NCBI RefSeq assembly: GCF_017876595.1
Contig: NZ_JAGIOG010000001.1
Location: forward strand, 1,240,001 to 1,304,000
Direction: 5' to 3'
DNA from: Aeromicrobium fastidiosum
GTDB taxonomy: Bacteria; Actinomycetota; Actinomycetes; Propionibacteriales; Nocardioidaceae
Length of the DNA: 64,000 nucleotides
Shown: in pieces, positions 1,747 through 17,269 of the stretch
How the letters are laid out: each line of letters starts with the position of its first letter
How positions within the stretch are numbered: the stretch's first letter is position 1
Position numbers and translations under genes: made by a program
The notes under the pieces: model-generated
Seen by the model: only the letters and a program-made list of their open reading frames with translations
What the model was told of the DNA's origin: nothing
Databases searched by the model: none

Positions 1747-1819
1747 GCGCCCGTAGCTCAACGGATAGAGCATCTGACTACGGATCAGAAGGTTAGGGGT
1801 TCGAATCCCTTCGGGCGCG
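1747..1819 (+). tRNA. tRNA-Arg (anticodon ACG)
   Basis: Full cloverleaf: acceptor GCGCCCG (1747-1753) with CGGGCGC (1812-1818), D stem GCTC/GAGC, anticodon stem TCTGA (1773-1777)/TCAGA (1785-1789) around loop CTACGGA, so anticodon ACG reads CGN codons, T stem AGGGG/CCCTT around TTCGAAT, discriminator G1819; CCA is not encoded. The 3' half from 1786 is supplied by the prophage att core. As a consequence the tRNA now runs directly into the antisense 3' end of the phage repressor, and its ancestral terminator is displaced to 18388-18419. A34 of this tRNA is the known substrate of TadA, encoded at 60523-60972. Confidence 0.97.
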
Positions 1820-2081
1820 CAGATGAGTCGCCTCCACCGTCATCGGTGGGGGCGATTCCTGTTTCCAGCCACTTCGCTGACACGCCCGTCGCCATGGCCC
1901 ATGCCGCCAGCAGCGGGCGCTTCGTCTCGGCTGCTCCGGTCTCTGCTCGGCGCACTGTGCTGCGGCTGACCTCGATGACCTTTGCCAGCTCGTCCTGGGT
2001 GAAGCCGGCCCCGCGCCGCGCGAGCTCGAGCCGGAGCGGCTTCGTCGACAGGACTGCGCCCGCGTCTATCTGAATCGTCAT
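1785..2081 (-). CDS. XRE-type phage repressor, lysogen form with attL-encoded C-terminus
   Basis: 98-residue DNA-binding protein with a helix-turn-helix at about residues 27-50 (FTQDELAKVIEVSRSTVRRAE). It is the likely immunity repressor: first gene of the leftward lysogeny side, divergent from the early operon, with operator-like palindromes between. I chose ATG 2081; an upstream ATG at 2132 would add 17 residues. Its last residues, PKGFEPLTF, are read from the antisense of the tRNA 3' half, and the TGA uses host base T1785. In the circular phage that base would be A, the stop becomes Cys and the frame continues 15 residues to an ATGA overlap with the gene now ending at 18079. So integration truncates the protein. 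Confidence 0.85.
   Translation of the reverse strand: MTIQIDAGAVLSTKPLRLELARRGAGFTQDELAKVIEVSRSTVRRAETGAAETKRPLLAAWAMATGVSAKWLETGIAPTDDGGGDSSARPKGFEPLTF
1786..1822. repeat. attL core (37-bp direct repeat)
   Basis: Identical over 37 bases to 18346-18382 and covering the tRNA from the anticodon stem to two bases beyond the discriminator. The flanking bases differ on both sides (T1785 against A18345, A1823 against G18383), which fixes the repeat ends. It also encodes the last residues and part of the stop codon of the leftward repressor. Confidence 0.95.
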
Positions 2082-2093
2082 GCGAGAAACGTA

Positions 2094-2169
2094 TCTCCAA
2101 ATGTGCTCGTGATGAAGTAAATGGTTCGACACGCCGCGTAAGAAACGTCACTCACGAACCATTTGGCTC
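2094..2169. promoter_or_regulatory. Divergent phage control region with operator-like palindromes
   Basis: Two 14-bp sites match the consensus GAACCAWWTGGTTC: 2114-2127 (GAAGTAAATGGTTC, 12 of 14 to the perfect site at 6273-6286) and 2156-2169 (GAACCATTTGGCTC). Their centres are 42 bp apart, four helical turns. A weak half-site sharing CCAAATG lies at 2094-2107, about 20 bp from the first. GAAACGT also occurs twice (2086-2092, 2142-2148). The region separates the leftward repressor from the rightward early genes, so binding by the repressor is the natural inference. Confidence 0.55.
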
Positions 2170-2376
2170 ATGATGAATCCCATGGACCGGGTGCCCGAGC
2201 TGCTGACGACCGCGGAAGCGGCCGAGTTCCTTGGGCTGTCTGTTCCATCGGTGCACCGCCTCGCGGTCGCTGGCGTCATCAAGACGCACTTCCAGCACCC
2301 CGGGCCGCGTGGCCCGCGGGTCTTCCACCGCGACGAGCTCTCGCGCGTCGCAGCCGAAAGGAACCTCGCATCATGA
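2170..2376 (+). CDS. Small HTH protein, excisionase/early regulator candidate
   Basis: 68 residues with a MerR/excisionase-type winged helix (TTAEAAEFLGLSVPSVHRLA, about residues 13-32) followed by a basic wing ending PRVFHRDEL. Such proteins act as recombination directionality factors or Cro-like regulators. It is the first rightward gene after the operator region, and its TGA overlaps the next ATG (ATGA at 2373-2376). No clear ribosome binding site precedes ATG 2170; ATG 2173 and 2182 are alternatives. Which role it has cannot be decided from sequence. Confidence 0.75.
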   Translation: MMNPMDRVPELLTTAEAAEFLGLSVPSVHRLAVAGVIKTHFQHPGPRGPRVFHRDELSRVAAERNLAS

Positions 2377-2708
2377 CCGAGACCGCACCCGAGCCCCAGC
2401 CGACCAACCCGGACGGCACGCTCATCCCCACCCCCGAGACCGACGAGGTTGACCGCCTCGCCGAGGGCATCGCCAAGGGCGTGACCGCCGGCCTCAGGGC
2501 CAAGCCCGGCCCCGTCGAAACCGTCGAGGTCGAGAAGCCTGTCGAGTGGAAGGCCGGCGACAAGGTCCGCTCGATCCAGGGGCACCAGCTCGTCGTGATC
2601 AGCCAGGGCGCGCCCGGCTCGGCCGTCCACTGCGAGTCGGCCGAGAAGGACGCCAAGCCGTACATCAACACGTACTTCGCGGCCGACACGCTCAAGAAGG
2701 CCCGCTGA
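2373..2708 (+). CDS. Hypothetical phage early protein
   Basis: 111 residues from ATG 2373, preceded by AAAGGA about 10 bases upstream and overlapping the previous gene by ATGA. The N-terminal third is Pro/Thr/Glu-rich and probably disordered; the C-terminal part (about 58-108: WKAGDKVRSIQGHQLVVIS) has the alternating hydrophobic pattern of a small beta domain. No family recognised. It belongs to the early operon 2170-3290. Confidence 0.75.
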   Translation: MTETAPEPQPTNPDGTLIPTPETDEVDRLAEGIAKGVTAGLRAKPGPVETVEVEKPVEWKAGDKVRSIQGHQLVVISQGAPGSAVHCESAEKDAKPYINTYFAADTLKKAR

Positions 2709-2710
2709 CC

Positions 2711-2932
2711 ATGATCGCCCTGACTTCCGGCGACGCAGCCGTCGATCTGCGTGAACTCGCGCAGGACGTCCGCGACAACGGGTGGGATCACTACGACCGC
2801 GAGCACGTCGCGCGCCTTCTTGAGGGTGCCGCGACGTGCTGGGAACTCGGTGAGCCCGTCCTTGTCACTGGCGGCAGCCCGTCCGCCCCTGCCCGGCTCA
2901 TGCTGGTCAGGGGCGGTGGCGATCTCTCATGA
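2711..2932 (+). CDS. Hypothetical phage early protein
   Basis: 73 residues from ATG 2711, two bases after the previous stop. It contains a helical stretch LRELAQDVRDNGWDHYDREHVARLL-like in the first half (about 13-37) and GEPVLVTGG in the second. No family recognised. Its stop overlaps the next start (ATGA, 2929-2932). Confidence 0.7.
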   Translation: MIALTSGDAAVDLRELAQDVRDNGWDHYDREHVARLLEGAATCWELGEPVLVTGGSPSAPARLMLVRGGGDLS

Positions 2933-3090
2933 GTTGGCGCACGGGCAAGGGCGGCGTGCAGGAGTGGGTCGGCGAGCCGATCCCCGAGCCCGACGCGATC
3001 GACCTGCACCTGAACTACGGCATGTCGTCCGTGGCCCTCAGCGAGAAGGAACGCAAGCGCCTCGCCCAGCTGCAAGAGGCCGACGCATGA
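2929..3090 (+). CDS. Small hypothetical phage protein (53 aa)
   Basis: Starts MSWRTGKGGVQEWVGEP at ATG 2929 and ends LAQLQEADA; the C-terminal third is a charged amphipathic helix (ALSEKERKRLAQLQEA). Both ends overlap neighbours by ATGA, which argues strongly that this short frame is translated by coupling. Function unknown. Confidence 0.65.
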   Translation: MSWRTGKGGVQEWVGEPIPEPDAIDLHLNYGMSSVALSEKERKRLAQLQEADA

Positions 3091-3290
3091 GCCGCGACTG
3101 CCCCACGGGCTGCGGCCGGAAGGCCCAGGCCGGGCACTACATGTGCCGATCATGCTGGTCCCGCGTCCCCAGAGACCTACAGCAGCGCGTCTACGCAACA
3201 TGGCGCGCCTGGCGCAAGGACCTGGGCGACCCCGACCTCATGAGGGCCTATCGGGCTGCCACGGACGCAGCAGAGGCGGCGATCGCCTGA
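3087..3290 (+). CDS. Small zinc-ribbon-like phage protein
   Basis: 67 residues, MSRDCPTGCGRKAQAGHYMCRSCW at the start: Cys5, Cys9, Cys20 and Cys23 form a CxxxC...CxxC metal-binding knuckle, followed by a Trp/Arg-rich helix (RDLQQRVYATWRAWRKDLGDP). A nucleic-acid-binding role is plausible but not shown. Last gene of the ATGA-coupled early operon; the next 360 bases hold no confident gene. Confidence 0.72.
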   Translation: MSRDCPTGCGRKAQAGHYMCRSCWSRVPRDLQQRVYATWRAWRKDLGDPDLMRAYRAATDAAEAAIA

Positions 3291-3649
3291 CCCTGACCCA
3301 GCAGTGCCGGTGTAGCAGGAAAGCGTGACCGGCAGCCCTCGCGAGGGGGCGTACAACTCACGGACCTGAACCGGGAACCCATGGCGAGAAGTTGGATTCG
3401 GAGACTCGACCCCCGAGGGAAATGCGAGCCGCAAACAGGTGCGGCACACACCGTCGCAACAGCTGATCACTAGACGCCGGTGGCGCGTGCAGCGACGTGT
3501 CCAAGAGGACACGGCGCTATCAGTCGTGCACGCGGCAAGGCCTGGAACGGCTCACGGGGGGACTCCGGGGGGATCCCCCCTGCCCAGCGCAGGTTCCCTG
3601 TCCGGCCCCGACCACGTACCCACCCCATGAGATAACCCGAGGAGGAGAG
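3291..3649. other. Non-coding phage region with two perfect palindromes
   Basis: No convincing gene. It contains a perfect 12-bp palindrome CCCTCGCGAGGG (3336-3347) and a perfect 14-bp palindrome GGGGGGATCCCCCC (3567-3580). The region ends in a strong ribosome binding site (GGAGG within 3640-3647) for the next gene. It sits just upstream of the HNH-terminase genes, the usual place for a cos or pac packaging site in tailed phages, so this is my best candidate for that site or for a structured early/late regulatory RNA. Confidence 0.4.
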
Positions 3650-3985
3650 ATGGACCGCACCACGTCACTCAAGGTCTGGTCAGCACGCCAGGACGAGGAG
3701 CCGCTCGAGGCACGCCTCGCACGTCTGGCCGCAGCTGCACCAGCACCACCCGTCGAGGGCCAGGCACAGACCATCCCCGGCCTCGACCCGCAGGTGGACA
3801 TCGCCACGCTCACCAAGCCCGAGCTGCACGACCTGGTCTACGCCGCGGCCTCGACCTACCTCCAGTCCCTCAGCTCGATGACCAAGACCAAGGCCCACCT
3901 ACACGCCGAGCGCATCGCACACCAGGCTCTCGCAATCACAGCCGGCCAGGACTACATGAGTCGTGGGGCTGATCCTCGTGGGTAG
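3650..3985 (+). CDS. Hypothetical phage protein upstream of HNH/terminase
   Basis: 111 residues from ATG 3650, chosen for the GGAGG four bases upstream; the same frame is open further upstream but without a good start. An Ala/Pro-rich N-terminal half is followed by a helical C-terminal part with KPELHDLVYAAASTYLQS and a His-rich helix (HLHAERIAHQAL). No family recognised. Overlaps the HNH gene by 23 bases. Confidence 0.65.
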   Translation: MDRTTSLKVWSARQDEEPLEARLARLAAAAPAPPVEGQAQTIPGLDPQVDIATLTKPELHDLVYAAASTYLQSLSSMTKTKAHLHAERIAHQALAITAGQDYMSRGADPRG

Positions 3986-4406
3986 CCCGGGGTGGAGCGG
4001 GCGACGCGTGCGCGTGCTGGTCGACGCGTGCCTCGCGCTCAAGGGCAGGACGTGTCACCTGTGCGGGCTGCCCGGTGCTGACTCAGCAGACCACGAGCCA
4101 CCACGCTCGACGCTGCTCGAGGCAGGCGTGCTCAACCCTGACGACCTGAGGTTCCTGTTCCCCTCGCATCGTCTGCCGTGCAACGTGAGCCGTGGCAAGC
4201 GACCGATCACGGCCGAGCTGCGCGTCGAGCTGCGTGCCAAGCGTGAGGCGATGATCGCTCGTCATGCGGCGCGAGCGAACCTGTCGCCCCGATTCGCGGC
4301 GCGTCGCCCATCTTCTTTGAGAGCCGGGGGCCATGGAAGCCCCGCGACCCCTTCCTTTTTATCTACTGGGACTCCAGAAAAAAACGACGAAAGCGAGCGG
4401 CCATGA
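3963..4406 (+). CDS. HNH endonuclease
   Basis: 147 residues from GTG 3963. It has CHLCG (about 31-35), then SADHEPPRS (about 41-49) and LPCNVSRGKRP (about 71-81), the Cys-pair, DH and N residues of HNH nucleases. In tailed phages an HNH protein next to the terminase genes commonly takes part in DNA packaging and cos cleavage, and its position directly before the small terminase supports that. The C-terminal tail is low-complexity. ATGA overlap with the next gene at 4403. Confidence 0.85.
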   Translation: MGLILVGSPGWSGRRVRVLVDACLALKGRTCHLCGLPGADSADHEPPRSTLLEAGVLNPDDLRFLFPSHRLPCNVSRGKRPITAELRVELRAKREAMIARHAARANLSPRFAARRPSSLRAGGHGSPATPSFLSTGTPEKNDESERP

Positions 4407-4759
4407 ACGAGAGCCAGGAGCCGGGCAGTACGCCGGCGCAGGACGGCTGGGCGCTGCCGGGGATGGAGGACGTGACTGGGCGACCGGTCACCGCGCTCGA
4501 GGTGGCCGTGCGTCGCACGATCGCGCGTCTTCAGCAGCTCGGCTACGTCGAGGAGATGCACGCGGCCCACACCGCCGCCGCGGTCGAGCTCGCGCAGGTC
4601 ATCAGCATGAAGCACAGCACCGGCAAGGCCTCGACGATCGGCAACGACATGCGAGCCATGATCGACCTGCTCGACCGCCTGGTGCCCGAGCGCGACGACA
4701 GCGCCGACCTCGTCATCAAGAAGGCCATGGAGCAGTGGGAGCAGCAGGTCGAGCTGTGA
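4403..4759 (+). CDS. Terminase small subunit candidate
   Basis: 118 mostly helical residues, with a central region TALEVAVRRTIARLQQLGYVEE and a C-terminal acidic helix. By position (between HNH and large terminase, overlapping both by four bases) it should be the DNA-recognition subunit of the packaging motor. The sequence alone is too diverged for me to confirm the family. Confidence 0.65.
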   Translation: MNESQEPGSTPAQDGWALPGMEDVTGRPVTALEVAVRRTIARLQQLGYVEEMHAAHTAAAVELAQVISMKHSTGKASTIGNDMRAMIDLLDRLVPERDDSADLVIKKAMEQWEQQVEL

Positions 4760-6237
4760 GCCTGCCGATCCTCGAGTACCGAGCGCAGCTGCACGAGCAG
4801 CTGCCCTCGCTCATGCCACCGCCGAAGTTCGCGACCGATCCCGACCTCAGCCGGCTCTCGCTCGGCCGCAGGCAGGACCGGTTCAGTCAGGTGTGGCTCG
4901 GCAAGTCGTTCATGCCGCACCAGAAGCTTATCTCGGACGTCGCCGGCGAGCTGGTCGAGGACCCCGAAAGCGGGCTGCTCGTGCCGGCCTACGCGCTCGT
5001 GCTCATCACGCTCCAGCGCCAGGCTGGCAAGAGCCACCTCGACATGGCCCAGAACGCCGAGCGGTGCTTCACCAACTCGAGGTATCGCAGCTGGTACACC
5101 GCCCAGACCGGCAGCGACGCCCGCGACCAGTTCCTCAAGTTCCAAGACGACGTCGTTGACAAGACCCCGCTCGATGCCGTCGTGCGGACGCTGCGCGGGT
5201 CGGGCCGCGAGATGATGATCTTCCCGAACAAGTCGACCATCCGGCCCTACGCGCCGACCGACGAGGGACTGCACGGCAAGCAGTCCGACCGCAACACGAT
5301 CGACGAGGGCTGGGCGTTCTCCAAGGAGCGCGGCAAGATTCTGCTGCAAGGCTCCGGCCCGACCGAGCTCACCCGCCCCAACGCGCAGACCTTCATCCTG
5401 TCGGCCGGCGGCACCGCCGAGTCGACGTGGCTGGCCGACCTGGTGTCTCGAGGCCGAGCGGGCGAACCGGGCATGGCGTTCTTCGAGTTCGGCGTGCCCG
5501 ACGACATGATCATCGAGGGCGACCTGACCGACGATGTCTACGCCGAGATCGCCCGCCACCACCCGGCCGTCGGCCACACCATCACCGTCGCCGCGCTCAA
5601 GAAGCTGCGGACGAAGCTGCCCGACGACGCCGAGTTCGCTCGAGCCGCCGGCAACCGGTGGACCGAGATCATCGGCGGCTCGATCAGCAAGGGACTCTGG
5701 GAGTCCGTGCGCCACGGCGACGCGATCCCCGCCGGCGTGCCCGTCGGCTACGGCGCAGCTCGAGCAGCCGACGGCAGCGAGGTCGTCATCGCCGCAGCTG
5801 CCGACCTCGGCGAGTTCGTCGTCGTCGAAATCCTCGACGTCCTGCGCCCGTTCAACGCCGCAGCTGCCGTCAACGACTGGACATCAGACGGCGAACTCGC
5901 CGTCGATCGAGTCGGCCCATCGTCGTCTCTCGCCGACGGCCTCGACACGCTCGGCCGCAAGCTCATGTCCCTGACCACCCGCGACGTGTCGGCCGGCGTC
6001 GCCAACATCCTCGACGGACTCAAGCCCCGCGCGATCCGCTTCCGCCAGCACCCGGCCCTCGACGACGCCGTGAAGGTCGCCGGCACCAGGCCGTCCGGCG
6101 ACGGCGGCAAGCTCTGGGCACGCGTCGCCGCCGGCGCGTCCATCGCCGCACTCGAGGCAGCCACCCTCGCAGTGTGGGCCGTCGGCCACCGACCACCCCC
6201 CACCGCCGCGCCAACGATGCGCCTCCCCGGCGAATAG
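4756..6237 (+). CDS. terL: Terminase large subunit
   Basis: Packaging ATPase/nuclease, 493 residues from GTG 4756 (GTGA overlap with the small subunit). The ATPase has an atypical Walker A LITLQRQAGKSHLD (about residues 85-98), Walker B NTIDEGWAF (about 181-189) and coupling motif TFILSAGGT (about 214-222). The C-terminal half should hold the RNase H-like nuclease. A longer in-frame reading frame upstream is only the antiparallel shadow of the small subunit. Confidence 0.9.
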   Translation: MSLPILEYRAQLHEQLPSLMPPPKFATDPDLSRLSLGRRQDRFSQVWLGKSFMPHQKLISDVAGELVEDPESGLLVPAYALVLITLQRQAGKSHLDMAQNAERCFTNSRYRSWYTAQTGSDARDQFLKFQDDVVDKTPLDAVVRTLRGSGREMMIFPNKSTIRPYAPTDEGLHGKQSDRNTIDEGWAFSKERGKILLQGSGPTELTRPNAQTFILSAGGTAESTWLADLVSRGRAGEPGMAFFEFGVPDDMIIEGDLTDDVYAEIARHHPAVGHTITVAALKKLRTKLPDDAEFARAAGNRWTEIIGGSISKGLWESVRHGDAIPAGVPVGYGAARAADGSEVVIAAAADLGEFVVVEILDVLRPFNAAAAVNDWTSDGELAVDRVGPSSSLADGLDTLGRKLMSLTTRDVSAGVANILDGLKPRAIRFRQHPALDDAVKVAGTRPSGDGGKLWARVAAGASIAALEAATLAVWAVGHRPPPTAAPTMRLPGE

Positions 6238-6242
6238 CAACA

Positions 6243-6286
6243 CGACACGCCGCGAGCGTTGTGGCTCTTTAGGAACCAAATGGTTC
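6243..6286. promoter_or_regulatory. Third operator-like site before the structural genes
   Basis: GAACCAAATGGTTC at 6273-6286 is a 14-bp palindrome apart from its central A/A, matching the two sites in the repressor-early control region. It is preceded by CGACACGCCGCG (6243-6254), a 12-mer also present at 2127-2138 next to one of those sites. The shared pair of motifs suggests co-regulation of the late structural operon by the repressor or an early protein. Confidence 0.5.
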
Positions 6287-7374
6287 ATGCTGCGTGTGTG
6301 AGTGTTCCGAGTCAGTCGCAGCGACGCGCGATCGAGGTCACCGACGTGACGGCCTCGATCGCGTCGATCGCGGTCTACAACGCCGCGTCCATCCCGATCG
6401 GCTCGCCGTGGGCAGACAGCAACCTCCAGCGCGTCATGTTCGAGGACATGTTCGGCGCTGGCGTGCAGCAGCCCGTCACCCGCACGGTCGCCATGTCCGT
6501 CCCCCCGCACGCTCGAGGACGCAACCGCCTGGTCTCCACCATCCAGGACTTCCCCCTGGTCGAGCTCGACGAAGCCACCGAGTCCGGCGTGCAGCCGCTC
6601 TGGGCGCAGTCGACGTCCGGCACCACGTCGCCGCAGCACCGCATGTGCTGGACCGTTGACGACCTGATCCACTACGGCGCTTCCCTGTGGATCAGGTTCA
6701 ACGACCCGATCAGCGGCTACCCGCTCGCGATGGACCGCGTCAACCGCGAGCGGTGGGCACTCGACGCGAAGGGCCTCATCCTGCTCGACGGCCACCCCGT
6801 CAACGCCAACGACGTCGTCTACATCCCCGGATTCCACGAGGGCGTGTTGCAGTTCGGTGCCGACGCGATCCGCGACATGAAGCAGCTCTACCGGATTGTG
6901 CGCCAGCGCATCAAGAACCCCGCCCCGAACGTCGTGCTCAAGCAGACCGGCGGCACCCCGCTCACCGAGACCGAGATCGACGCACTGATCCTGCGCAACG
7001 CCAAGGCCCGCGAGGGCGAGAACGGCGGCGTCGGCTACGCGTCCGAGCACATCGACTACCAGGAGAAGGGCGCGTCGGCGGACTCGCAGCTCATGGTCGA
7101 GGGCCGCAACGCCGGCGCAGTCGACATCGCCCGCAACATCGGCGTCTCGGCGTCCCTGGTCGACGCGACCGCCCCGAAGGCGTCGCTCAACTACGAGACG
7201 TCCGAGGGCAAGAACCTCGAGTTCGTGGACGAAGACCTCCGGCTCTACATGGGGCCGATCACCGCCCGCCTGTCGATGGACGACGTCACCCCGTCCGGCC
7301 GGCGCATCGCGTTCGACCTGACCGACTACACCGCCAAGGCCCCGTCACCGACCGGCCCGGCCACCGAGGACTGA
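6280..7374 (+). CDS. Phage portal protein
   Basis: About 364 residues. Forms the dodecameric ring through which DNA enters the capsid. Position directly after the large terminase and before the protease-capsid gene, plus the typical portal core with LDGHPVNANDVVYIPGF followed by a long helical region (AIRDMKQLYRIVRQRI) and EGENGGVGYASEHIDY, support the call. Start is uncertain: TTG 6259, ATG 6280 (inside the operator-like palindrome) or GTG 6298; none has a clear ribosome binding site. Confidence 0.85.
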   Translation: MVHAACVSVPSQSQRRAIEVTDVTASIASIAVYNAASIPIGSPWADSNLQRVMFEDMFGAGVQQPVTRTVAMSVPPHARGRNRLVSTIQDFPLVELDEATESGVQPLWAQSTSGTTSPQHRMCWTVDDLIHYGASLWIRFNDPISGYPLAMDRVNRERWALDAKGLILLDGHPVNANDVVYIPGFHEGVLQFGADAIRDMKQLYRIVRQRIKNPAPNVVLKQTGGTPLTETEIDALILRNAKAREGENGGVGYASEHIDYQEKGASADSQLMVEGRNAGAVDIARNIGVSASLVDATAPKASLNYETSEGKNLEFVDEDLRLYMGPITARLSMDDVTPSGRRIAFDLTDYTAKAPSPTGPATED

Positions 7375-7375
7375 C

Positions 7376-9034
7376 ATGACCATCGACCTGTGCCGCATCA
7401 CTGCCGGCGACGAGACGACCGAGCTGACTGTCTACGCCGGCCGTCTCACGTCGTCGACCACGTCACGCACCCTGACCGGCCCCGTCGTTCGCTACGGCGT
7501 CCCCGGCCGCACCTCGCGCGGCCTGCTGACGATCGACGGCCCCGAGGTGCTGACGTGGCCCGAGGACATCCGCCAGGTCAAGCTCACCAAGGAGCACGAC
7601 CGCGCGAGCTCGCGCGGCTTCATGTCAGACCTGGTGTTCATCCCCGAGGGCATCGACGCCGCCATGACAGTCGACGACGGCCCCGAGGGTGACGCCGCCC
7701 TGCGCGAGGCCGACCCGTCCAAGCCGATCCGTGACGGTTTCAGCTACGACATCGTCGACGCCGTCATCCGCGGCTCCAAGATCGTCGGCGGTCGCGTCGT
7801 CGCGATCGGCCAGGTCGGCATCCCCGCACACGACGGCTTCCGCATCAGCGTCGCCGCCTCCCAGACCCCCGCAGCACCCAACCCCACAGGAGACAAGATG
7901 ACCCCCGAACAGGCTGCGCGGCTCGCTGCGCTCCGAGGCCAGCAGACCCGAACCGCCGCCGAGGAGGCCGAGCTCGCGCAGCTCGCAGCCCTCGAGACAC
8001 CGGCAGCGCCCGCCGCGCCTGCCGCCCCGGCCGCACCCGTCGCGCAGCCCGCAGCACCCAACGCACCGCCGCAGGCGCAGATCGCGCCGGTCACCCCCGG
8101 CCCGGCGGCTGCCCCCGCCGGCGTGCCGGTGCAGGCGTCCGCGACCGAGGTCCGCGAGACCGGTCTCGCCGCGTTCGCCGCCCTCGTCGCCGCACGCCTC
8201 AATCCCGGCGGCATCGGCGACCAGGACGTCACCGCCGCGCTCGCCGACGTCACCCACGCCCAGCACACCGACACCGTGTCGCCCGAGTCGTGGTCCGGTG
8301 AGCTGTGGTCCGGCCTCGAGTACCAGCCGCAGTTCCTCGACCTGTTCGTGCAGGGCTCGCTCACGTCGTGGTCGGGCAAGGGCTGGCGGTGGGGCGTGAA
8401 GCCTCAGGTCGGCGCGTACGCCGGCAACAAGGCCGACATCCCGAGCAACGTCCCGACGACGGTCCCCTCGAGCTACGAGGCGTTCCGCATCGCCGGCGGA
8501 TGGGACTTCGATCGCAAGTTCTTCGACTTCCCCGACGCCGCGTTCATCGCGTCGTTCCTCGCCGCGGTGCGCGAGCACTACGTGATGACGCTGGACTTCA
8601 AGGTCCGCGACTACATCCTCGCCGAGGCCGTCGCGTCCGGGTTCGCCTCGCAGACCAACCTGCTCAAGGCGATCCGCCTGGCAACCAAGAAGGTCAAGCG
8701 CAACACGAAGGGTGCGCCGGCGTCGTTCGTGCTGGTCAACGACGACGACATCGACTCGCTGTTCGACATCAACGAGAACGAGGTGTCGGCGTTCCTCGCC
8801 CTGCTCGGCGTCAAGCCCGACGACATCAAGTCGACCGAGGACATCCCCGCCGGCTTCGTCTACGCCGGCGTCAAGCAGGCCGCGACGGTCCGCCAGCTGC
8901 CCGGCGCTTCGCCCATCCGTGTCGAGGTGCAGAACGTGACCAAGGCCGGCATCGACGACGCGTTCTTCGGCTACGGCGCGATCGAGGAGCACCACACGTC
9001 GGGCATCGTCAAGCAGGCATTCGCGGCCGCCTGA
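7376..9034 (+). CDS. Capsid maturation protease-major capsid fusion
   Basis: 552 residues. Residues 1-160 resemble an HK97-type prohead protease, with His74 (TKEHDRASSRG) and Ser123 (DGFSYDIVD) as probable catalytic residues. Residues 165-265 form an Ala/Pro/Gln-rich delta-like linker, and about 280-552 form the major capsid protein. An in-frame ATG at 7898 (Met175) with AGGAG five bases upstream could give a separate 378-residue linker-capsid product, so both a full-length fusion and free capsid are expected. Fusion of the two functions is known in small actinophages; the internal start is what I see here. Confidence 0.88.
   Translation: MTIDLCRITAGDETTELTVYAGRLTSSTTSRTLTGPVVRYGVPGRTSRGLLTIDGPEVLTWPEDIRQVKLTKEHDRASSRGFMSDLVFIPEGIDAAMTVDDGPEGDAALREADPSKPIRDGFSYDIVDAVIRGSKIVGGRVVAIGQVGIPAHDGFRISVAASQTPAAPNPTGDKMTPEQAARLAALRGQQTRTAAEEAELAQLAALETPAAPAAPAAPAAPVAQPAAPNAPPQAQIAPVTPGPAAAPAGVPVQASATEVRETGLAAFAALVAARLNPGGIGDQDVTAALADVTHAQHTDTVSPESWSGELWSGLEYQPQFLDLFVQGSLTSWSGKGWRWGVKPQVGAYAGNKADIPSNVPTTVPSSYEAFRIAGGWDFDRKFFDFPDAAFIASFLAAVREHYVMTLDFKVRDYILAEAVASGFASQTNLLKAIRLATKKVKRNTKGAPASFVLVNDDDIDSLFDINENEVSAFLALLGVKPDDIKSTEDIPAGFVYAGVKQAATVRQLPGASPIRVEVQNVTKAGIDDAFFGYGAIEEHHTSGIVKQAFAAA
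7888..7900 (+). promoter_or_regulatory. Internal ribosome binding site and ATG inside the capsid gene
   Basis: AGGAG at 7888-7892, spacer ACAAG, ATG 7898-7900 in frame with the fusion. This is a better translation signal than most gene starts in the prophage. It lies at the protease/linker boundary, where an independent capsid precursor should begin. Confidence 0.65.
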
Positions 9035-9035
9035 C

Positions 9036-9428
9036 ATGCCCATCACCATCGCGACCCTGGTGGCCGGCCTCCCCGCGGGGCCGGCCACCGAGGCCGGTGT
9101 GCGCAAGCAGCTGCACATCGCGACCGACGACACCCTCGACGACGCCGCGCTCGAGGCGGCGATCAACGGCGTCAACGACACCGTCATCGACTTCCCGTTC
9201 GTGCACGACTTCGTCAAGAGCATCGACCCGGCCGCAAGCGACAACGTGTGGCGTCCCCGGATCGTCACCGGCGCGAACCTGCTGGCAGCGCGCGTGTTCG
9301 CCCGCCGCAACTCCCCGGAGGGCGTCGCCATGATGGGCACCGACGGTGCGGTCTACGTCCAGCGCAACGACCCCGACGTCGCCATGATGCTCCAGCTCGG
9401 CAGTCACGCTAAGCCGGCTATCGGATGA
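9036..9428 (+). CDS. Head-tail connector protein
   Basis: 130 residues directly after the capsid gene. Predominantly helical: VRKQLHIATDDTLDDAALEAAINGVNDTVIDF matches the pattern of gp6-type adaptor proteins that sit below the portal. Assignment rests on position and helix pattern. Its stop overlaps the next start (ATGA, 9425). Confidence 0.7.
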   Translation: MPITIATLVAGLPAGPATEAGVRKQLHIATDDTLDDAALEAAINGVNDTVIDFPFVHDFVKSIDPAASDNVWRPRIVTGANLLAARVFARRNSPEGVAMMGTDGAVYVQRNDPDVAMMLQLGSHAKPAIG

Positions 9429-9778
9429 CCAGCCTCGTCGCCGCCGTCGACTTCATGATCGCCGACCTCAAGGAACTCGAGTACGACGGGCAGCCGCTAC
9501 GCGTCACGCCCCGTCTCGAGGACGTCCAGCCGCCGTGCGTGTGGGTCGCGCTCGAGTCGATCGACCACCTGTCGGCCGTCGGCGAGATGACGCTCCGACT
9601 GTTCCTGATCGCGCCTGCCATGGACGAGTACCGGGCACTCAAGGTGCTCGGCCCGCTGCTCGACCAGGTGCTCACCGTCGTCTCACCCACCGAGGCCACC
9701 ACGGTCGTCGGCATCAGCCCCACCAACCAGCTGCGCGACCTCGCCGCGCTGCGCGTCACCACCACCGTCGTCACCTAG
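9425..9778 (+). CDS. Tail terminator/minor connector candidate
   Basis: 117 residues, alpha/beta pattern: N-terminal helix, DGQPLRVTPRLEDVQPPCVWVALESI, then a helix and terminal strands ending RVTTTVVT. Size, order (connector, this gene, major tail protein) and fold pattern fit a tail terminator. No diagnostic motif, so moderate confidence only. Confidence 0.6.
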   Translation: MTSLVAAVDFMIADLKELEYDGQPLRVTPRLEDVQPPCVWVALESIDHLSAVGEMTLRLFLIAPAMDEYRALKVLGPLLDQVLTVVSPTEATTVVGISPTNQLRDLAALRVTTTVVT

Positions 9779-9786
9779 GAGACAGC

Positions 9787-10203
9787 ATGGCAATCAAGAG
9801 CTACATCGTCGGCCCCGGCTCGCTCATCTTCGGCTCGCCCGGCGCGCCCGACGAGATGGCCGCGCAGATCACCAGCTGCACCGCGACCCCGTCCGTCGAC
9901 ATCGGCGACGTCATCCCCGTGCTGTCCGGTGAGGAGCTGCCCGGCGACCGCGAGGTCACCTGGGTGCTCGAGGGCAACTTCCTGCAGGACATCACCGAGA
10001 CCGGGATCACGACCTACACGCTCGAGAACTCCGGCCAGCAGAAGCCCTTCGTCTACATCCCCAACAACATCGAGGGCCGCTCGCTGTCGGGCAACGTCGT
10101 CATCGACCCCACCGCGATCGGCGGCGACGTCAAGGCCCGCGCAACGGCCGACTTCGAGTTCAGCATCATCGGTGAGCCCGCGCTCGGCGACGTCGCACCG
10201 TAG
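9787..10203 (+). CDS. Major tail tube protein
   Basis: 138 residues from ATG 9787 with AGGAG eight bases upstream. Beta-rich, with DREVTWVLEGNFLQDITETGITTYTLENSG and a strand-rich end typical of tube subunits that polymerise on the tape measure. Position before the G/GT chaperones agrees. Confidence 0.78.
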   Translation: MAIKSYIVGPGSLIFGSPGAPDEMAAQITSCTATPSVDIGDVIPVLSGEELPGDREVTWVLEGNFLQDITETGITTYTLENSGQQKPFVYIPNNIEGRSLSGNVVIDPTAIGGDVKARATADFEFSIIGEPALGDVAP

Positions 10204-10205
10204 CC

Positions 10206-10592
10206 ATGGCGACAACGGCGATCACCCGTGTGGTCGGCGCGGACAAGCTCCGCGCCGGCCTCAAGGCCACGGGCGACGACCTCGAGGACGCCAAGGAAGT
10301 CCACCTCGCGATCGCCAAGGTCGTCGCCGACGCCGCAGACCTGCCAGTCGGCGAGACCGGCCGCACCGCCGCCAGCCTGCGCCCAGGAGCCACCAAACGG
10401 GCCTCCATCGTCCGCGCCGGCAAGGCGTCCCTCCCCGGCGTCCAGCCCGACCACTACGGCTGGCCCGCACGAAACATCCGAGAAAACCCCTGGCTGGTCC
10501 TAGCCGGCCAGGGCAGCGAGTCCACCTGGTACCCGCTGTACGAACGCTACGTCGAGCGGTCGCTCGACAAGATCAAAGGAGCCACAGGATGA
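10206..10592 (+). CDS. HK97 gp10-like neck/tail completion protein
   Basis: 128 residues. Begins with a helical region (GADKLRAGLKATGDDLEDAKEVHLAIAKVVADAA) followed by GETGRTAASLRPGATKRASIVRAGK and YPLYERYVERSL, the pattern of the gp10-like neck family. In most siphophages this gene precedes the major tail gene; here it follows it. ATGA overlap with the chaperone gene (10589). Confidence 0.65.
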   Translation: MATTAITRVVGADKLRAGLKATGDDLEDAKEVHLAIAKVVADAADLPVGETGRTAASLRPGATKRASIVRAGKASLPGVQPDHYGWPARNIRENPWLVLAGQGSESTWYPLYERYVERSLDKIKGATG

Positions 10593-10918
10593 CGAACCCC
10601 AATGCACCGAAGCTGACCCGCATGACGATGGGCTACCAGCTCGAGGGCCAGGAGCCCGAGACCTGCGAGGTCCACAACCGCTCGCTGATCGCCTGGGACG
10701 AGACCCGCGGCGTCCGCAAGTGGCCGTCGTCGACCGACGCGCCCTTCCTGTGGATGACGTTCATCGTCTGGCACCACCTCAACCGCCGCGGCCTCTACGC
10801 CGGCGACTTCCTCAAGTTCAAGGAGGAGTGCGAGACCGTCGAGTCGCTCGATGACGACGCCCCGGTGGACCCTACCCAGCCGGCAGCCACGCCCGACTTG
10901 TCATCGCACTCGGAATAG
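10589..10918 (+). CDS. Tail assembly chaperone G
   Basis: 109 residues; acts during tail assembly by coating the tape measure. Placed between tail and tape measure genes, and followed in the -1 frame by a conserved-looking extension (see 10855-11022), the hallmark of G/GT chaperones. The ending in frame 0 is Asp/Pro/Ala-rich and low-complexity. Confidence 0.8.
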   Translation: MTNPNAPKLTRMTMGYQLEGQEPETCEVHNRSLIAWDETRGVRKWPSSTDAPFLWMTFIVWHHLNRRGLYAGDFLKFKEECETVESLDDDAPVDPTQPAATPDLSSHSE

Positions 10919-11022
10919 CCGCCGGCCCCACCTCAGGCCGCGGCATCCCGTGGTCAGAGGAGAGCGACGAAGCGATCGCCACAGCCCTAGAAATCCTGCA
11001 CGAACAAGCCGAAGGAGAGTGA
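10855..11022 (+). CDS. Tail assembly chaperone T, made by -1 frameshift from G
   Basis: The -1 frame is open only from 10855 (after a TGA at 10852) to a TGA at 11020-11022, two bases before the tape measure start. It encodes PGGPYPAGSHARLVIALGIA, then TSGRGIPWSEESDEAIATAL and a charged end, which looks like real protein, with no independent start. Slippage must occur between 10855 and 10918; C-runs at 10860-10863 and CCCT at 10870-10873 are the candidate sites. The product would be a GT fusion of about 143 residues. Confidence 0.7.
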   Translation, partial: RRPGGPYPAGSHARLVIALGIAAGPTSGRGIPWSEESDEAIATALEILHEQAEGE

Positions 11023-11023
11023 G

Positions 11024-12484
11024 ATGGGACGTCCCAAGGTCCTCGCGATCAATGTCGTCACAGACTCACGCCGCGGCGTCAAGGGACTGCAGGAGACCGA
11101 GAGCGCCGCGGCCCGCATGGGCCGCGGCGTCCAGAAGGCCGGCAAGCTCGCCGGCGGTGCCCTGCTCGTGCTGGGTGCCGCCGGCATCAAGGCCGCGAAG
11201 GGCGCAGCTGAGGACGAGGCCGCGCAGGTTCGCCTGGCCGGCCAGCTGCGCCGCAACGCCAGCGCGACCCGAGCGTCGATCGCCGCCACGGAGAAGTGGA
11301 TCGACCGCCAGGCCCGCGCCAAGGGCATCGCCGACGACGAGCTGCGCCCCGCGCTCGGCAAGCTCGTCACCGCGACCGGGTCGGTCGAGCAGTCTCAGAA
11401 GGCCCTCAGACTGGCGATGGACATCAGTGCCGCGTCGGGCAAGCCGCTCGAGGCCGTCTCAGCTGCGCTCGCGAAGGGCTACGGCGGCAACACTGCTGCG
11501 CTCGGCAAGCTGGTGCCTGGCATCGACAAGGCGATCCTCAAGTCGGGCGACATGGCCAAGGTCACCGATGCGCTGTCCAAGAAGGTCGGCGGCACCGCGG
11601 TCGAGGCCGCGCAGACCAACGAGGGCAAGATGCGTCGCGCGGCCGTCGCCGCCGGCGAGTTCCAGGAGACGCTGGGCGGGCTGCTGCTGCCCGCCATGGA
11701 GAAGATCATCGCCGTGCTCGCCAGGGCGACCACGTACCTCGAGGCCAACCAGCAGACCGTCACCCGCGTCATCGTCGCCGTCGCCGCGCTCGCCGCCGGC
11801 ATCCTGGTCATCAACGGCGTCATGAAGGTCTACCAGGCCACCATGCTCGTGATCACCGCCGCCACGAAGGCGTGGGCGATCGCCACCCGCATCCTCAACG
11901 CCGTCATGAAGGCCAACCCCATCGGTCTGCTGATCACCGCGATCGGCCTCGTCGTCGCCGGCTTCGTGCTGGCCTACAAGAAGTCCGACACCTTCCGCGG
12001 CATCGTGCAGACCGTCGGCAAGGCCGGCCAGACGGCCCTCAACTGGATCGTGGAGAAGGCCCAGGCCGTCGCCGACAAGATCGGCAAGCTCGGCCCCGCT
12101 GCCCAGAAGGGCAAGGACATCTTCGTCAAGGCGATCGACCTCTACACCAAGCCCTTCCAGGTGCTGTTCGACCTCGTCATGAAGGTCGTCGACGCGATCG
12201 GCAAGATCAAGGTCCCCAACATCGGCAAGGCGCTCAGCAAGCTCCCCGGTGTCGGTGGCCCCTCAGCTCCCCCCGTGGCCCCCGGTGGCTCCGTGGCGCG
12301 TGGGGGCAAGGGCGGCCCCGGCGGTGGCGGCGCGACCGTCCCCGCCGGCGGCGGTCGCTACGGCGGCGTCACCGTCGTCGTCAACTTCAACGGCCTGGTC
12401 ACAGACAAGGAAGGCACCGCCCGCGCGATCCGCGACCTACTGCGCGGCTCGGACATCCGCAACAACCGCGTGGTGACGGTATGA
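11024..12484 (+). CDS. Tape measure protein (short)
   Basis: 486 residues, ATG one base after the T-frame stop. Helical throughout, with hydrophobic segments in the N-terminal part (GGALLVLGAAGI) and mid-region (about 245-315: VIVAVAALAAGILVI, LLITAIGLVVAGFVLA), then a Gly/Pro-rich linker and a C-terminal strand region. Tape measure length sets tail length; at the usual 0.15 nm per residue this predicts a tail near 70 nm. ATGA overlap with the next gene. Confidence 0.9.
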   Translation: MGRPKVLAINVVTDSRRGVKGLQETESAAARMGRGVQKAGKLAGGALLVLGAAGIKAAKGAAEDEAAQVRLAGQLRRNASATRASIAATEKWIDRQARAKGIADDELRPALGKLVTATGSVEQSQKALRLAMDISAASGKPLEAVSAALAKGYGGNTAALGKLVPGIDKAILKSGDMAKVTDALSKKVGGTAVEAAQTNEGKMRRAAVAAGEFQETLGGLLLPAMEKIIAVLARATTYLEANQQTVTRVIVAVAALAAGILVINGVMKVYQATMLVITAATKAWAIATRILNAVMKANPIGLLITAIGLVVAGFVLAYKKSDTFRGIVQTVGKAGQTALNWIVEKAQAVADKIGKLGPAAQKGKDIFVKAIDLYTKPFQVLFDLVMKVVDAIGKIKVPNIGKALSKLPGVGGPSAPPVAPGGSVARGGKGGPGGGGATVPAGGGRYGGVTVVVNFNGLVTDKEGTARAIRDLLRGSDIRNNRVVTV

Positions 12485-14046
12485 GCACCCTCGAGCGGCC
12501 CGCCTACCGGGTGTCGATCGAGAACGTCGACCAGGGGTGGACCCACACCATCGAGCACCGCGAGGCACCGCCGGCGTGGGAGGACGTCACGGCACTGCTG
12601 ATCGACGACTTCACGATGGGATGGGGCCTCGCCGGCCCCCCGCCGTCCCAGATGGCCAGCGACACCGTCTCCTTCAAGTTCTACGCCCGCTTCGCCGAGC
12701 ACGTCCCCGTCCTCGAGGTCGGCGACCTGCTCGAGGTGAACCTCGACCGCCCCGGCCCCGACGGCACCCTGATCCCCTACATGCACTTCGTGGGCCGCAC
12801 AACGGACCCTCAGGCCCTCGCAGTCCCCGGCCGGGGCATCACCCTCACCGTCGGCGCGGTCGGCATCCTGCTCGACCTCGTCGGCGAGCTCGACCGCACC
12901 GACGCGACCGCGGTCGGCGGGTTCGACGTCGAGTACGACCTCATGACCCGCGTGCTGCACTACCACGCCGGCCTCGCGATCGCCGAGCACTACCCGCGCC
13001 AGTTCACCCGCCTCACGGCCTACCAGGGCCGGTTCTCGCTCCAGGAGTACGTCACCCGCGCCCTCAACGGTGCCGTCGGCCCGAACGGCGCATACGCCGC
13101 AGTCCTGCGCTACGCCCGCAACTGGGTGGACACCACGGGGAATTGGGCGACGTTCCCGACCGACTACGGCACCCTCGTCCACTACTACATGCAGAAGTGG
13201 CTCCTCAAGATGCCGCCCCCGCTCAACTTCGTCTCATACGGGCGCCGCGTGGCGCTCGGCCCGAACGCAGAGACCGTCGACCAGATCACCACCCTGTCCT
13301 CGTCCTACATCGACGCACCGACCGACTGGACTAAGAGCCGCGACGACCTGGTCAACATCGTCAACATCACCTACACGGCCGCGCTGTCGGGCGATCCCAT
13401 CACCGGCCCCGAGGAGATCGGCGACAAGGTTGCCAGCGTCCAGGACAACGCCAGTCGCAACCGCTACGGCCCAGCTCAGATCGACGTCGCCACTCTCGTC
13501 ATTGCCGCCGACGTCAACGACGTCGCCCAGGCCTACCTCAACGGCTCGCCCGGCTCGCTCGCCTGGTCCGTCCCGCAGCTGGTCGTCCACACCAAGCTCA
13601 TGGACGACGACGAGCTAGACCAGCTGGCCCCGACGTTCTTCCCCCACCCCTTGCCGCGCGAGGACACAGCCGGACGGTTCTTCATCGTGACCGAGATCGA
13701 CGAGCTCACCGCGATCGCTGGCACCGCCGCAGCCATGCAGCTTGTCGGCGCGACGTTCTCCATCAGCCGCGGCGACCTGACGATCACCTGCAACATGCGC
13801 CCGATGCCGACCCCGTCGTTCGCGACGTCCATCACGTACGACGACATCGCGGGCACCAACATCGCCCCGACGTTTTGGCAGTACCCGACCGTCTGGGGCG
13901 ACCTCGAGCCGCTCTCGCTGACGTACGACGACGTGCCCACTGACGCCGTGTGGACGTCGCCCAGCCCCACGGTCAACTGGCTCGCCCTCGACCAGTTCTA
14001 CATCGACCCAGCGCTGGACTGGGACGAGCTCACGTACACCGATTAG
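12481..14046 (+). CDS. Minor tail / distal tail-baseplate protein
   Basis: 521 residues from ATG 12481. It is the only large gene between the tape measure and the hydrolase-bearing tail protein, so it must cover roles that larger phages split between distal tail and tail-associated proteins. It begins MSTLERPAYRVSIENVDQGW with beta-rich sequence and has no enzymatic motif I recognise. Aromatic-rich C-terminus (YDDVP, WLALDQFYIDP). Confidence 0.72.
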   Translation: MSTLERPAYRVSIENVDQGWTHTIEHREAPPAWEDVTALLIDDFTMGWGLAGPPPSQMASDTVSFKFYARFAEHVPVLEVGDLLEVNLDRPGPDGTLIPYMHFVGRTTDPQALAVPGRGITLTVGAVGILLDLVGELDRTDATAVGGFDVEYDLMTRVLHYHAGLAIAEHYPRQFTRLTAYQGRFSLQEYVTRALNGAVGPNGAYAAVLRYARNWVDTTGNWATFPTDYGTLVHYYMQKWLLKMPPPLNFVSYGRRVALGPNAETVDQITTLSSSYIDAPTDWTKSRDDLVNIVNITYTAALSGDPITGPEEIGDKVASVQDNASRNRYGPAQIDVATLVIAADVNDVAQAYLNGSPGSLAWSVPQLVVHTKLMDDDELDQLAPTFFPHPLPREDTAGRFFIVTEIDELTAIAGTAAAMQLVGATFSISRGDLTITCNMRPMPTPSFATSITYDDIAGTNIAPTFWQYPTVWGDLEPLSLTYDDVPTDAVWTSPSPTVNWLALDQFYIDPALDWDELTYTD

Positions 14047-14054
14047 GAGTCACC

Positions 14055-15758
14055 ATGCCCACCACAGAAGGCGGTCTGCCGTACCCGGCGTCGACCGATC
14101 CAATCCGTCTCGGCGCTCAGCGCATCCGTGAGCTCGCGGTCGCGGTCGACAGCAAGCTCGTCGAGACGAACGCCCAGCTGGCGTCGTCGCTGGCGCAGAT
14201 CGCCGACGACATCGAGTCGATCCCCAAGGGCGAGAAGGGCGATCCCGGCGGCGCTTCGCCGACCGACGTCGCGATCGCGCTCGAGGACTCCGACGGGCCC
14301 GCCGGGGTGATCCTCGACGAAAGGATTCTTGAGCTCTCGGTCTCGATTCCGCCCACCCGTGTGGCGGTCGCCCCGCTGTCTGCGCCGAACACCGTTACGA
14401 CGCTCGGCGGTGCGCTCGACAACACCTTCCGCACGATCATGAAGCTTCCGTTTGACACCGCACGGTGGCGGCTCAAGTTCCGCAACCGCAACCTTCTGGA
14501 CAACACAGTCCCAGTCGGCGCGGCAACGATCACCAGCGTCTATCAGGGCACGCCGTCGCGACCCACCACCACCACCAGCGGGCAGCGGTGGGTTGGCACC
14601 TGCACAGCAGCCCTGACGCTTCTGCAGGATGCCGACGTCGCCGTCCCCAACACAGGCGCATGGGCGTACTCGGAATGGTTCGACGACGGCCCCGAGCAGT
14701 TCGCAGCCAACTCCGAGAAGGTGATCTCGATTGGAGTCACCGCAGCCAGCGGACAGGTGCTCGCCAAGGGCAACGGCTACCAGTGGGCTCGTGGCTCTCT
14801 CGCCGCCAACGCCGGTTCGGCAGCCCTCACCACCGGCACCGCCGGTGTCGGCCTGGACTATCTCGACGTGTGCGTCGAGTACGAGTTCGCGGCGGCCGTC
14901 AAGGTGCTGCTCGCGGTGGGGGACTCCAATACCCTCAGCTACGTCCCCGACGCCCCGCCTCTGATCCCCACCGCAGCTGCGGGTCTCCTGCCGTTCGAGT
15001 CATGGCCCGCGATCGCCGGCGCAATGGGTGGCTTCGCCGTGATCAACCTCGGTGTCGGCTCGGCGCAGACGCCGAACTTCGACCCGACCAGCGTGTCTTA
15101 CATTCCTGCGCTGTGGGATCGGCTGCCGGCCGGCGTCGAGATCGACGCTGTGATCAACAGTCTCGGCACGAACGACCTCGGCTCGTCCCTGACGACGTTC
15201 ATCGGCCAGATGCGGGCGATCAACGCCTACGAGCGCGACACTCTCGGCATCCCCGCAGCATGGTGGACCACCATCACCCAGCGGTGCTTCCCCGACCTCT
15301 CCTACGGTCCCGGCGTGGACGCCGGCGCAATCAAGGCGGGGTACCTCCAGGCCAACATCGCGGCCGGAGCTACGTCGTTCTCATCGTCCACAGCGCCCCC
15401 GACCGGGTCTCTGCTGCTCGGCACCGGAGCAAACGCCGAAGACGTCACGGTGTCCTCAGTCACAGGCGCTGGCCCGTACACGGTGAATGTCAGCGCGACC
15501 GTAAACGCCCACTACGCCGGCGAGCGGTGGGGCGTGGCAGCTGAACGGCTCCGCACCTACAAGAACAACTTCCTGCGTCAGATCCCCGACGGGATTCTCG
15601 GGTGCTTCGACTTCGAGAGAGGCGTCGAGTCGACTCCTGGCTCGGCGCAGATCGATCCACGCTATGCCGCCTCGGACTGGCTCCACTTCCAGCGCGGCGT
15701 GTCAGCAACCAAGGCTGGCCTCGTCGTAGGCACTGGCATCGCTCCGCTGTTCGGCTGA
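14055..15758 (+). CDS. Tail protein with SGNH hydrolase domain
   Basis: 567 residues from ATG 14055 (AGGAG six bases upstream). The N-terminal ~80 residues are helical with a short collagen-like GEKGDPGG; a beta-rich middle follows; residues about 295-567 are an SGNH/GDSL hydrolase: block I AVGDSN, block II NLGVGSA, block III SLGTNDLG, block V DWLHF. All four catalytic blocks are present. A second beta insertion (about 440-500) interrupts the domain. Such domains remove acyl groups from surface polysaccharides, so this is the likely receptor-processing protein. Confidence 0.85.
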   Translation: MPTTEGGLPYPASTDPIRLGAQRIRELAVAVDSKLVETNAQLASSLAQIADDIESIPKGEKGDPGGASPTDVAIALEDSDGPAGVILDERILELSVSIPPTRVAVAPLSAPNTVTTLGGALDNTFRTIMKLPFDTARWRLKFRNRNLLDNTVPVGAATITSVYQGTPSRPTTTTSGQRWVGTCTAALTLLQDADVAVPNTGAWAYSEWFDDGPEQFAANSEKVISIGVTAASGQVLAKGNGYQWARGSLAANAGSAALTTGTAGVGLDYLDVCVEYEFAAAVKVLLAVGDSNTLSYVPDAPPLIPTAAAGLLPFESWPAIAGAMGGFAVINLGVGSAQTPNFDPTSVSYIPALWDRLPAGVEIDAVINSLGTNDLGSSLTTFIGQMRAINAYERDTLGIPAAWWTTITQRCFPDLSYGPGVDAGAIKAGYLQANIAAGATSFSSSTAPPTGSLLLGTGANAEDVTVSSVTGAGPYTVNVSATVNAHYAGERWGVAAERLRTYKNNFLRQIPDGILGCFDFERGVESTPGSAQIDPRYAASDWLHFQRGVSATKAGLVVGTGIAPLFG

Positions 15759-15781
15759 CCAACTCAACGAAAGGCATCACC

Positions 15782-16477
15782 ATGGCAAGAACGATCTACG
15801 CCCCCGGCCTCAACGCCGGCGGCACCCGACCCCGCGCACTCGCCTGGGTCGGCCGCAGATTCTCCCCCGGCTGGTGCCTCTACTGGTGCCTCACCCAGGT
15901 GTTCAAGGTCCCCGGCCTCGGCGACTACGACCACGACGGATCAGCCGACGCAGAGGACTACTGGAAAGCCGCCGTCGCACGCGGCAAGGCCGTCAAGTCG
16001 ACCAACTGGCGCAAGTTCCCGCCCGGCGTCCTGCTCATGTGGACCGGCGGCAGGAACGACCACGGCCACGCCGCCTACTGCCTCGGCAACGGCGAGATGG
16101 TCTCGACCGACCTGCCCACCTACGGCACGGTCGGACGATGCTCGATCGACCTGCCACGTCGCCAGTGGGGTCTCACGCTCGTCGGCTACGTCCTGGTCGA
16201 CGGCAACGGCTTCACCCTCACCCGCGAGACCGACGACGTCGACCAGGAGCAGGACGACAAGACCGTCAAGCTCCCCAAGCCCGTCAAGTACACCGTGACG
16301 AAGCCAGGAGGCCTCAAGGGCCGGGCCGGGCCGTCGGACAAGGGCAAGGTCGTCTGGACCGTCAAGGAGGGCCACACCGTCGTGGCCGTGGCGATCGTGA
16401 CCGGCTCGAGCCGCAAGTGGGCCGTCAACAAGAACGGAACCCACTACCCGCTCGAGCACCTGGTCGAGAAGCCGTGA
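15782..16477 (+). CDS. Endolysin (Cys/His peptidase plus SH3-like domain)
   Basis: 231 residues. The N-terminal domain has GWCLYWC (Cys32) and NDHGHAAYC (His94/His96), consistent with a CHAP/NlpC-type peptidase cutting peptidoglycan peptides. DYDHDGSADAEDY (about 48-60) looks like a calcium-binding loop. After an acidic linker (about 145-160) the C-terminal 65 residues resemble a bacterial SH3 wall-binding domain (VTKPGGLKGRAGPS). No signal peptide, so it should need a holin; membrane proteins follow at once. Confidence 0.8.
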   Translation: MARTIYAPGLNAGGTRPRALAWVGRRFSPGWCLYWCLTQVFKVPGLGDYDHDGSADAEDYWKAAVARGKAVKSTNWRKFPPGVLLMWTGGRNDHGHAAYCLGNGEMVSTDLPTYGTVGRCSIDLPRRQWGLTLVGYVLVDGNGFTLTRETDDVDQEQDDKTVKLPKPVKYTVTKPGGLKGRAGPSDKGKVVWTVKEGHTVVAVAIVTGSSRKWAVNKNGTHYPLEHLVEKP

Positions 16478-16809
16478 GGTCGGTCCTGGCGGCGCTGGTC
16501 CACGGCGTCGACCCGATCTACCGCGACGTCGTCACGACGGGCGGGCTGATCGTCGTCGCCCTGATCGGCCTCGTCGGGACGCTCGCCGGCCTCGGCTATG
16601 TACGCCTCGGCCGCAAGCTCGACACCGCGGTCGTGCAGACGCAGCCCACCGGCAACGGCTTCGCTCAGGAGATGCGCGAGTCCCTGCGCCAGGTGCATCG
16701 CCGGCTCGACGCCCAGAACGAGCACACCGCGAAGCGCGACGACCACATCGACGCCGTGTTCATCAAGTTCGACGACCGACTCACCCACATCGAGGAGAAC
16801 CTGCCATGA
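16474..16809 (+). CDS. Holin-like membrane protein
   Basis: 111 residues from GTG 16474 (GTGA overlap with the endolysin). One membrane segment (about 22-45: GGLIVVALIGLVGTLAGLGYV) followed by a long charged coiled-coil tail. This matches small actinophage lysis-cassette proteins with a single N-terminal membrane span; it could be a holin or a holin regulator. Confidence 0.7.
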   Translation: MRSVLAALVHGVDPIYRDVVTTGGLIVVALIGLVGTLAGLGYVRLGRKLDTAVVQTQPTGNGFAQEMRESLRQVHRRLDAQNEHTAKRDDHIDAVFIKFDDRLTHIEENLP

Positions 16810-17239: not shown

Positions 17240-17269
17240 GACGTCGGAACCTACCGGGTCGGTCGGTTC

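Follow-up and report, generated by a model that had tools for sequence, protein, structure and literature searches.

The window, a 64,000-nucleotide stretch of the Aeromicrobium fastidiosum genome (contig NZ_JAGIOG010000001.1, positions 1,240,001 to 1,304,000), contains a prophage that is bounded by a direct repeat, with a tRNA gene at one end and an integrase-like open reading frame (ORF) near the other (Table 1). This prophage is the same element as IMG/VR contig 2918376121. Within it, a gene for a protease-capsid fusion adjoins a portal-like gene, a setting that fits small siphovirus-type genomes of about 14 to 18 kb, and a portal is also the upstream neighbor in most of the relatives found in Arthrobacter phages. 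At the left end, the attachment repeat overlaps the 3' end of a repressor-like helix-turn-helix ORF, so integration would alter the C terminus of the encoded protein. This arrangement resembles the integration-dependent immunity described for cluster CW phages (PMC5559632).

Table 1. Features of the prophage and of its protease-capsid gene, in window coordinates
Feature	Position	Strand	Basis or remark
Prophage of about 16.6 kb	1782-18382	.	41-bp direct repeat 1782-1822 / 18342-18382, 98% identical
tRNA-Arg(acg) gene at prophage left end	1747-1820		
Helix-turn-helix ORF, repressor-like	1785-2132	-	3' end overlaps left attachment repeat 1782-1822
Portal by position, gene 5' of the fusion	6259-7374	+	ORF list; stop codon 1 nt ahead of fusion ATG
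Primary initiation site: GAGG 7366-7369, 6-nt spacer, ATG 7376-7378	7366-7378	+	Anti-SD pairing, -5.9 kcal/mol
Protease-capsid fusion gene	7376-9034	+	552 aa, PHROG 2263
Predicted prohead protease domain, residues about 17-156 (His74, Ser123)	7424-7843	+	Structure model, fold comparison
Disordered joint with internal Shine-Dalgarno site, residues 157-174	7844-7897	+	pLDDT under 50 at 157-172
Internal Shine-Dalgarno AGGAG	7888-7892	+	Sequence; duplex with anti-SD, -7.4 kcal/mol
Internal in-frame ATG, codon 175 (Met175), proposed start of free capsid precursor	7898-7900	+	Sequence, family recurrence
Proposed nested gene, free capsid precursor, 378 aa	7898-9034	+	Internal ATG to shared stop
Helical hairpin, residues 177-188 and 194-205, proposed scaffold (delta-like) element	7904-7990	+	Model, block pLDDT up to 96
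Ala/Pro-rich linker, residues 206-288, mostly disordered, short helix 264-274	7991-8239	+	Translation, model
HK97-fold major capsid domain, residues about 290-552	8243-9031	+	Model, fold comparison
Integrase-like ORF	17270-18082	-	

The fusion protein matches the PHROG 2263 "major head protein" profile over its whole length (E 8.8e-54, residues 14-551 on profile positions 22-545 of 551). A structure model built on 58 relatives (mean pLDDT 79.8) resolves the two ends of the protein into separate folds. Fold comparison of this model paired residues 12-156 with T4 gp21 (5jbl_B; Z 14.3, rmsd 2.4 over 133 residues) and residues 304-551 with HK97 (1ohg_A; Z 17.4, rmsd 3.5 over 235 residues), and the predicted protease also has a Proheadase_HK97 match in BFVD. 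His74 and Ser123 are unchanged in 58 of 58 aligned relatives. The model, the fold matches, and the alignment all agree with the preliminary description of this DNA, which had recognized a protease-like domain with these two residues, an Ala/Pro linker, and a capsid within one 552-residue gene. The predicted assignment of the protease is based on fold and not on a curated profile: a Pfam search of the fusion protein matched no family, an NCBIfam search returned only a chance match (E 0.14), a search of the genome for Peptidase_S78 found none, and a sequence profile compared with solved structures likewise gave only a chance match where the fold comparison succeeded. The protease was also modeled alone, without relatives, and that model (pLDDT 35) was set aside.

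The joint behind the protease carries AGGAG, followed by a 5-nt spacer (ACAAG, 7893-7897) and an in-frame ATG, so that the Shine-Dalgarno (SD) match, the spacer, and the start codon together span 7888-7900. The letters are as the preliminary description gave them, and its placement of Met175 at the domain border is matched by the model, in which the protease extends to about residue 156, residues 157-172 are disordered, and a confident hairpin starts at residue 177. Met175 sits 2 residues ahead of the helix that opens what the model presents as an entire capsid precursor. Members of the clade that includes the window gene retain AGGAG and differ in the spacer, with AGGAG-N5-ATG in the window and in L007 and AGGAG-N8-ATG in L034.

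Relatives of this gene are the "major capsid and protease fusion proteins" of 14- to 18-kb phages of Arthrobacter, Gordonia, Rhodococcus, Curtobacterium, and Microbacterium. Genome contigs were scanned as well, with seven loci found by a profile scan and zero by a single-protein scan; a close relative is present in a genome of the same genus (Aeromicrobium), and the Aeromicrobium locus from the profile scan shares its site sequence. Complete fusion ORFs were taken from 131 loci, of which 86 were left after reduction at 80% identity, and a site was scored wherever an in-frame linker ATG was preceded, at a spacer of 4 to 12 nt, by an SD match of 4 nt or more. Such a site is present in 76 of the 86 nonredundant genes, and in 57 of them the match is 5 nt or longer. 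When the order of codons in the linker is shuffled, only 33.7±4.2 and 10.6±3.1 genes, respectively, are expected, while synonymous shuffles that leave the protein unchanged lead to 65.9±2.2 and 36.0±2.8. When the genes were grouped at 45% capsid identity (n = 25 clusters), 21 clusters had a site at the 4-nt threshold (codon-order shuffles, 8.6±2.1; synonymous shuffles, 20.0±1.1) and 16 had one at the 5-nt threshold (2.9±1.5 and 10.7±1.6). The synonymous shuffle over these 25 divergent clusters is the strictest of the tests, and it reached significance only at the 5-nt threshold, not at the 4-nt threshold. Conservation among homologues, by which the preliminary description had proposed to judge the site, is borne out, with counts clearly above every shuffle except the synonymous one over clusters at the 4-nt threshold. 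Moreover, the first Met of the linker bears an SD match in 67 of 81 genes, and a GTG with an SD match occurs in 6 of the 10 genes that lack an ATG site (L045, L052, L082, L089, L096, and L097). The free products predicted across the family are 313 to 395 aa long, and each would be a complete capsid precursor.

These counts bear on the alternative that all subunits are made as the full fusion, with the protease removing itself later, and that the SD-like stretch arises incidentally, from a linker peptide that is charged and contains Met. Although a few relatives do keep the fusion without an internal site, the five-residue peptides upstream of the internal Met are different in all 76 main-family genes, and the SD matches fall into differing codon registers (32, 36, and 8 genes), mainly two of them. 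One conserved peptide therefore does not explain the signal in the DNA, and in the main family the SD matches are also favored by synonymous codon choice. Met codons in other parts of these genes rarely have an SD match of 5 nt or more, which is found at 19 of 443 ATGs inside the domains versus 60 of 186 ATGs in the linkers (Fisher p 5e-20); for matches of at least 4 nt, the figures are 98 of 443 and 98 of 186. A control in the +1 frame gave a match of at least 4 nt at 9 of 56 linker ATGs, compared with the same 98 of 186 in frame; the +1 frame was used because the linkers have no ATG in the +2 frame, which makes a +2 control uninformative. We consider it unlikely that all subunits begin as fusions.

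The surroundings of the site in the 76 genes also have the character of an initiation region. The spacing between SD match and ATG is mostly 4 to 8 nt, the region from -25 to +20 folds at -5.6 kcal/mol versus -13.9 kcal/mol in the rest of the linker, and the GC content around the site is 0.587 versus 0.700 in the rest of the linker. Shuffles of the flanking codons fold at -6.2 kcal/mol, a small difference from the observed value (p = 0.009), and so the weak folding is mostly due to base composition. Because of this composition effect, and because picking the best site in each linker inflates the site averages, the folding and GC figures are supporting rather than decisive.

Relatives that are only 23 to 62% identical retain the site, and its position varies, with a median of 15 residues past the protease (interquartile range, 11 to 51). 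This persistence is difficult to reconcile with the idea that the site is left over from a formerly independent capsid gene, joined to the protease gene when the latter lost its stop codon, and that the site now sees little use. The site is located where a separate capsid gene would begin, and the downstream product is laid out like a normal HK97-type capsid precursor, with the capsid preceded by a helical N-terminal region, as that idea would have it. A relic would be expected to decay, yet the site is maintained while its position moves and its peptide changes. Also, a search of the 131 complete loci for separate protease and capsid genes found none, and the capsid-only ORFs encountered were mostly cut by contig ends. 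We regard a relic as very improbable.

Exceptions exist. Emperor, SallySpecial, EricDab, and L077 have no credible internal site, which indicates that the site is typical of the family but is not universal or essential in every lineage; the linkers of the first three are shorter and lack the helical segment. Several further variants were observed in the family. In relatives from Gordonia and Rhodococcus, the protease is preceded in frame by an additional hydrophobic segment at the N terminus, with a 19-aa hydropathy of 1.8 to 2.9 (L005 2169-4028, L010 1418-3325, L012 1439-3325, L015 1244-3295, L014, L016, L017, and L006). Between this segment and the protease, Emperor, SallySpecial, and EricDab have AAAGGA-ATG (at HRKDPTM, HRKDDPM, and HRKEPDM, respectively), a sequence that suggests another nested start. 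In one Gordonia-type fusion (L059 2272-3942), PAPAQ is repeated in tandem roughly 12 times in the linker, and the only start candidate, a weak one, is where the protease domain ends. Finally, record OR067381.1 (H108), labeled as a Pseudomonas aeruginosa phage, has match coordinates and identity equal to those of Arthrobacter phage Adaia (H109), and its host label looks doubtful.

The recurrence of the site throughout the family, together with its initiation features, makes two-product expression by internal initiation likely. We propose that the locus is a nested protease/capsid gene. Initiation at 7376 would yield the 552-aa fusion of protease, hairpin, linker, and capsid, while initiation at the internal AGGAG/ATG would yield a 378-aa capsid precursor that opens at the helical hairpin. 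Because the two products share the C-terminal capsid domain, they would co-assemble, and the fusion copies would carry the protease into the prohead. There, the protease would cut the linker, leaving a single mature form of the capsid protein and releasing the scaffold and protease parts. We infer the use of the internal site, the co-assembly, the linker cleavage, and the ratio of the products, and we place the probability of this scheme as a whole at roughly 0.8.

The preliminary description had also claimed two products from one gene, with free capsid in excess as a solution to the stoichiometry problem of a covalent fusion. Retention of the site in relatives favors the first part of that claim. 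The second part finds no such support, since the internal SD match is stronger than the primary one in only 12 of the 24 genes whose start is annotated (p = 0.57). That even split is also what might be anticipated if the internal start served a regulatory or minor product, or a ribosome pause, and did not supply most of the shell. We think this improbable, as every internal site would yield a whole capsid precursor and as, in the window, the start coincides with the natural boundary of the scaffold-like hairpin. As for space within the shell, GMA5 heads are about 37 nm (PMC4524720), and a T=3 or T=4 capsid is expected for RRH1 (PMC7762592). We roughly estimate that 180 protease domains would occupy between one-quarter and one-third of a T=3 prohead.

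Protease-capsid fusions outside PHROG 2263 offer additional candidates for internal initiation. In the cluster EE fusion of Yasuo, the protease matches the family profile (E 8e-21) and the capsid part hardly matches; AGAGG, about 10 nt, and an ATG follow directly after the protease, at the same border, and are identical in at least five other EE loci. Among AU-type fusions, 49 of 51 have an in-frame ATG with an SD match 15 to 48 codons ahead of the capsid, compared with 18.4±3.3 when codon order is shuffled. With synonymous shuffles, the expectation is 47.9±0.5, meaning that the conserved peptide accounts for the SD signal in these genes and that there is no selection beyond it, a result in line with the alternative in which every subunit is made as a fusion. 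By their position ahead of the capsid, the AU-type sequences are suggestive as further cases of an internal start, but no more than that. Two other features of these genes were observed. The AU-type fusions (L140 4009-6165, L153-L232) contain a repeated helical-looking unit (VQDFLEELEEDQKEVV, VQEIFHSFDRDQEEIF, VKEVLDSFSEEQENVL) upstream of the capsid, and several (e.g., L160, L163, L164, and L185) have a second SD match with GTG or ATG shortly past the protease, as if there were three nested products. Searches across the phylum with NF045541, a model of another fusion, gave only weak partial matches. We see about even odds that internal initiation releasing free capsid is general and has evolved repeatedly in protease-capsid fusions, covering PHROG 2263, cluster EE, and the AU type, with some genes of the latter, which look three-tiered (protease-scaffold-capsid, scaffold-capsid, and capsid), having one start per tier in one frame.

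Several assembly systems resemble the proposed arrangement in part. In phage lambda, gene C encodes a protease together with the scaffold Nu3, which is made from an in-frame internal start, and Mu I/Z is organized likewise. As proposed for the window gene, one frame gives both a protease fusion and a free structural partner by internal initiation; in lambda and Mu the nested partner is the scaffold, whereas in the window it would be the major capsid protein bearing its own hairpin. Herpesvirus UL26 and UL26.5 encode a protease-scaffold and a free scaffold that share their C-terminal part, and few protease copies are present among many scaffolds. The sharing of a C-terminal part between a protease form and a free form would be common to both systems, but the herpesviruses use an internal transcript and have no internal ribosome site, and their capsid protein is not nested. 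In HK97, the capsid precursor gp5 has 385 aa, similar in size to the 378-aa precursor proposed here; the protease (gp4) acts inside the prohead, and gp5 has a helical N-terminal scaffold part and the HK97 fold. Unlike in the window, gp4 and gp5 come from separate genes, and the protease is not covalently fused.

The fusions of small actinophages (clusters AN and CW, RRH1, and others; PHROG 2263) belong to the same family as the window gene and share its three-part architecture and a similar gene order. Such protease-capsid fusions have already been described, and the sections available to us report them as common in siphoviruses with uncommonly small genomes (PMC5513430, PMC7302621). Those sections make no mention of an internal start, the examined records carry no annotation of one, and in the open-access literature we found no paper on an internal start in protease-capsid fusion genes. 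The fusion itself is therefore known, and the conserved internal start within it appears to be new. More specifically, the apparent novelty lies in the major capsid protein being the nested partner and in the conservation of its start across the family.

If a protease were attached to every shell subunit, there would be one protease per capsid subunit inside a very small shell. With a nested start, a minimal genome would obtain two assembly proteins from one gene, and the dose could be adjusted. A second product has probably been overlooked in many genes annotated as "major capsid and protease fusion," and the question of how these shells assemble becomes directly testable in isolated laboratory phages such as GMA5, Maggie, and RRH1.
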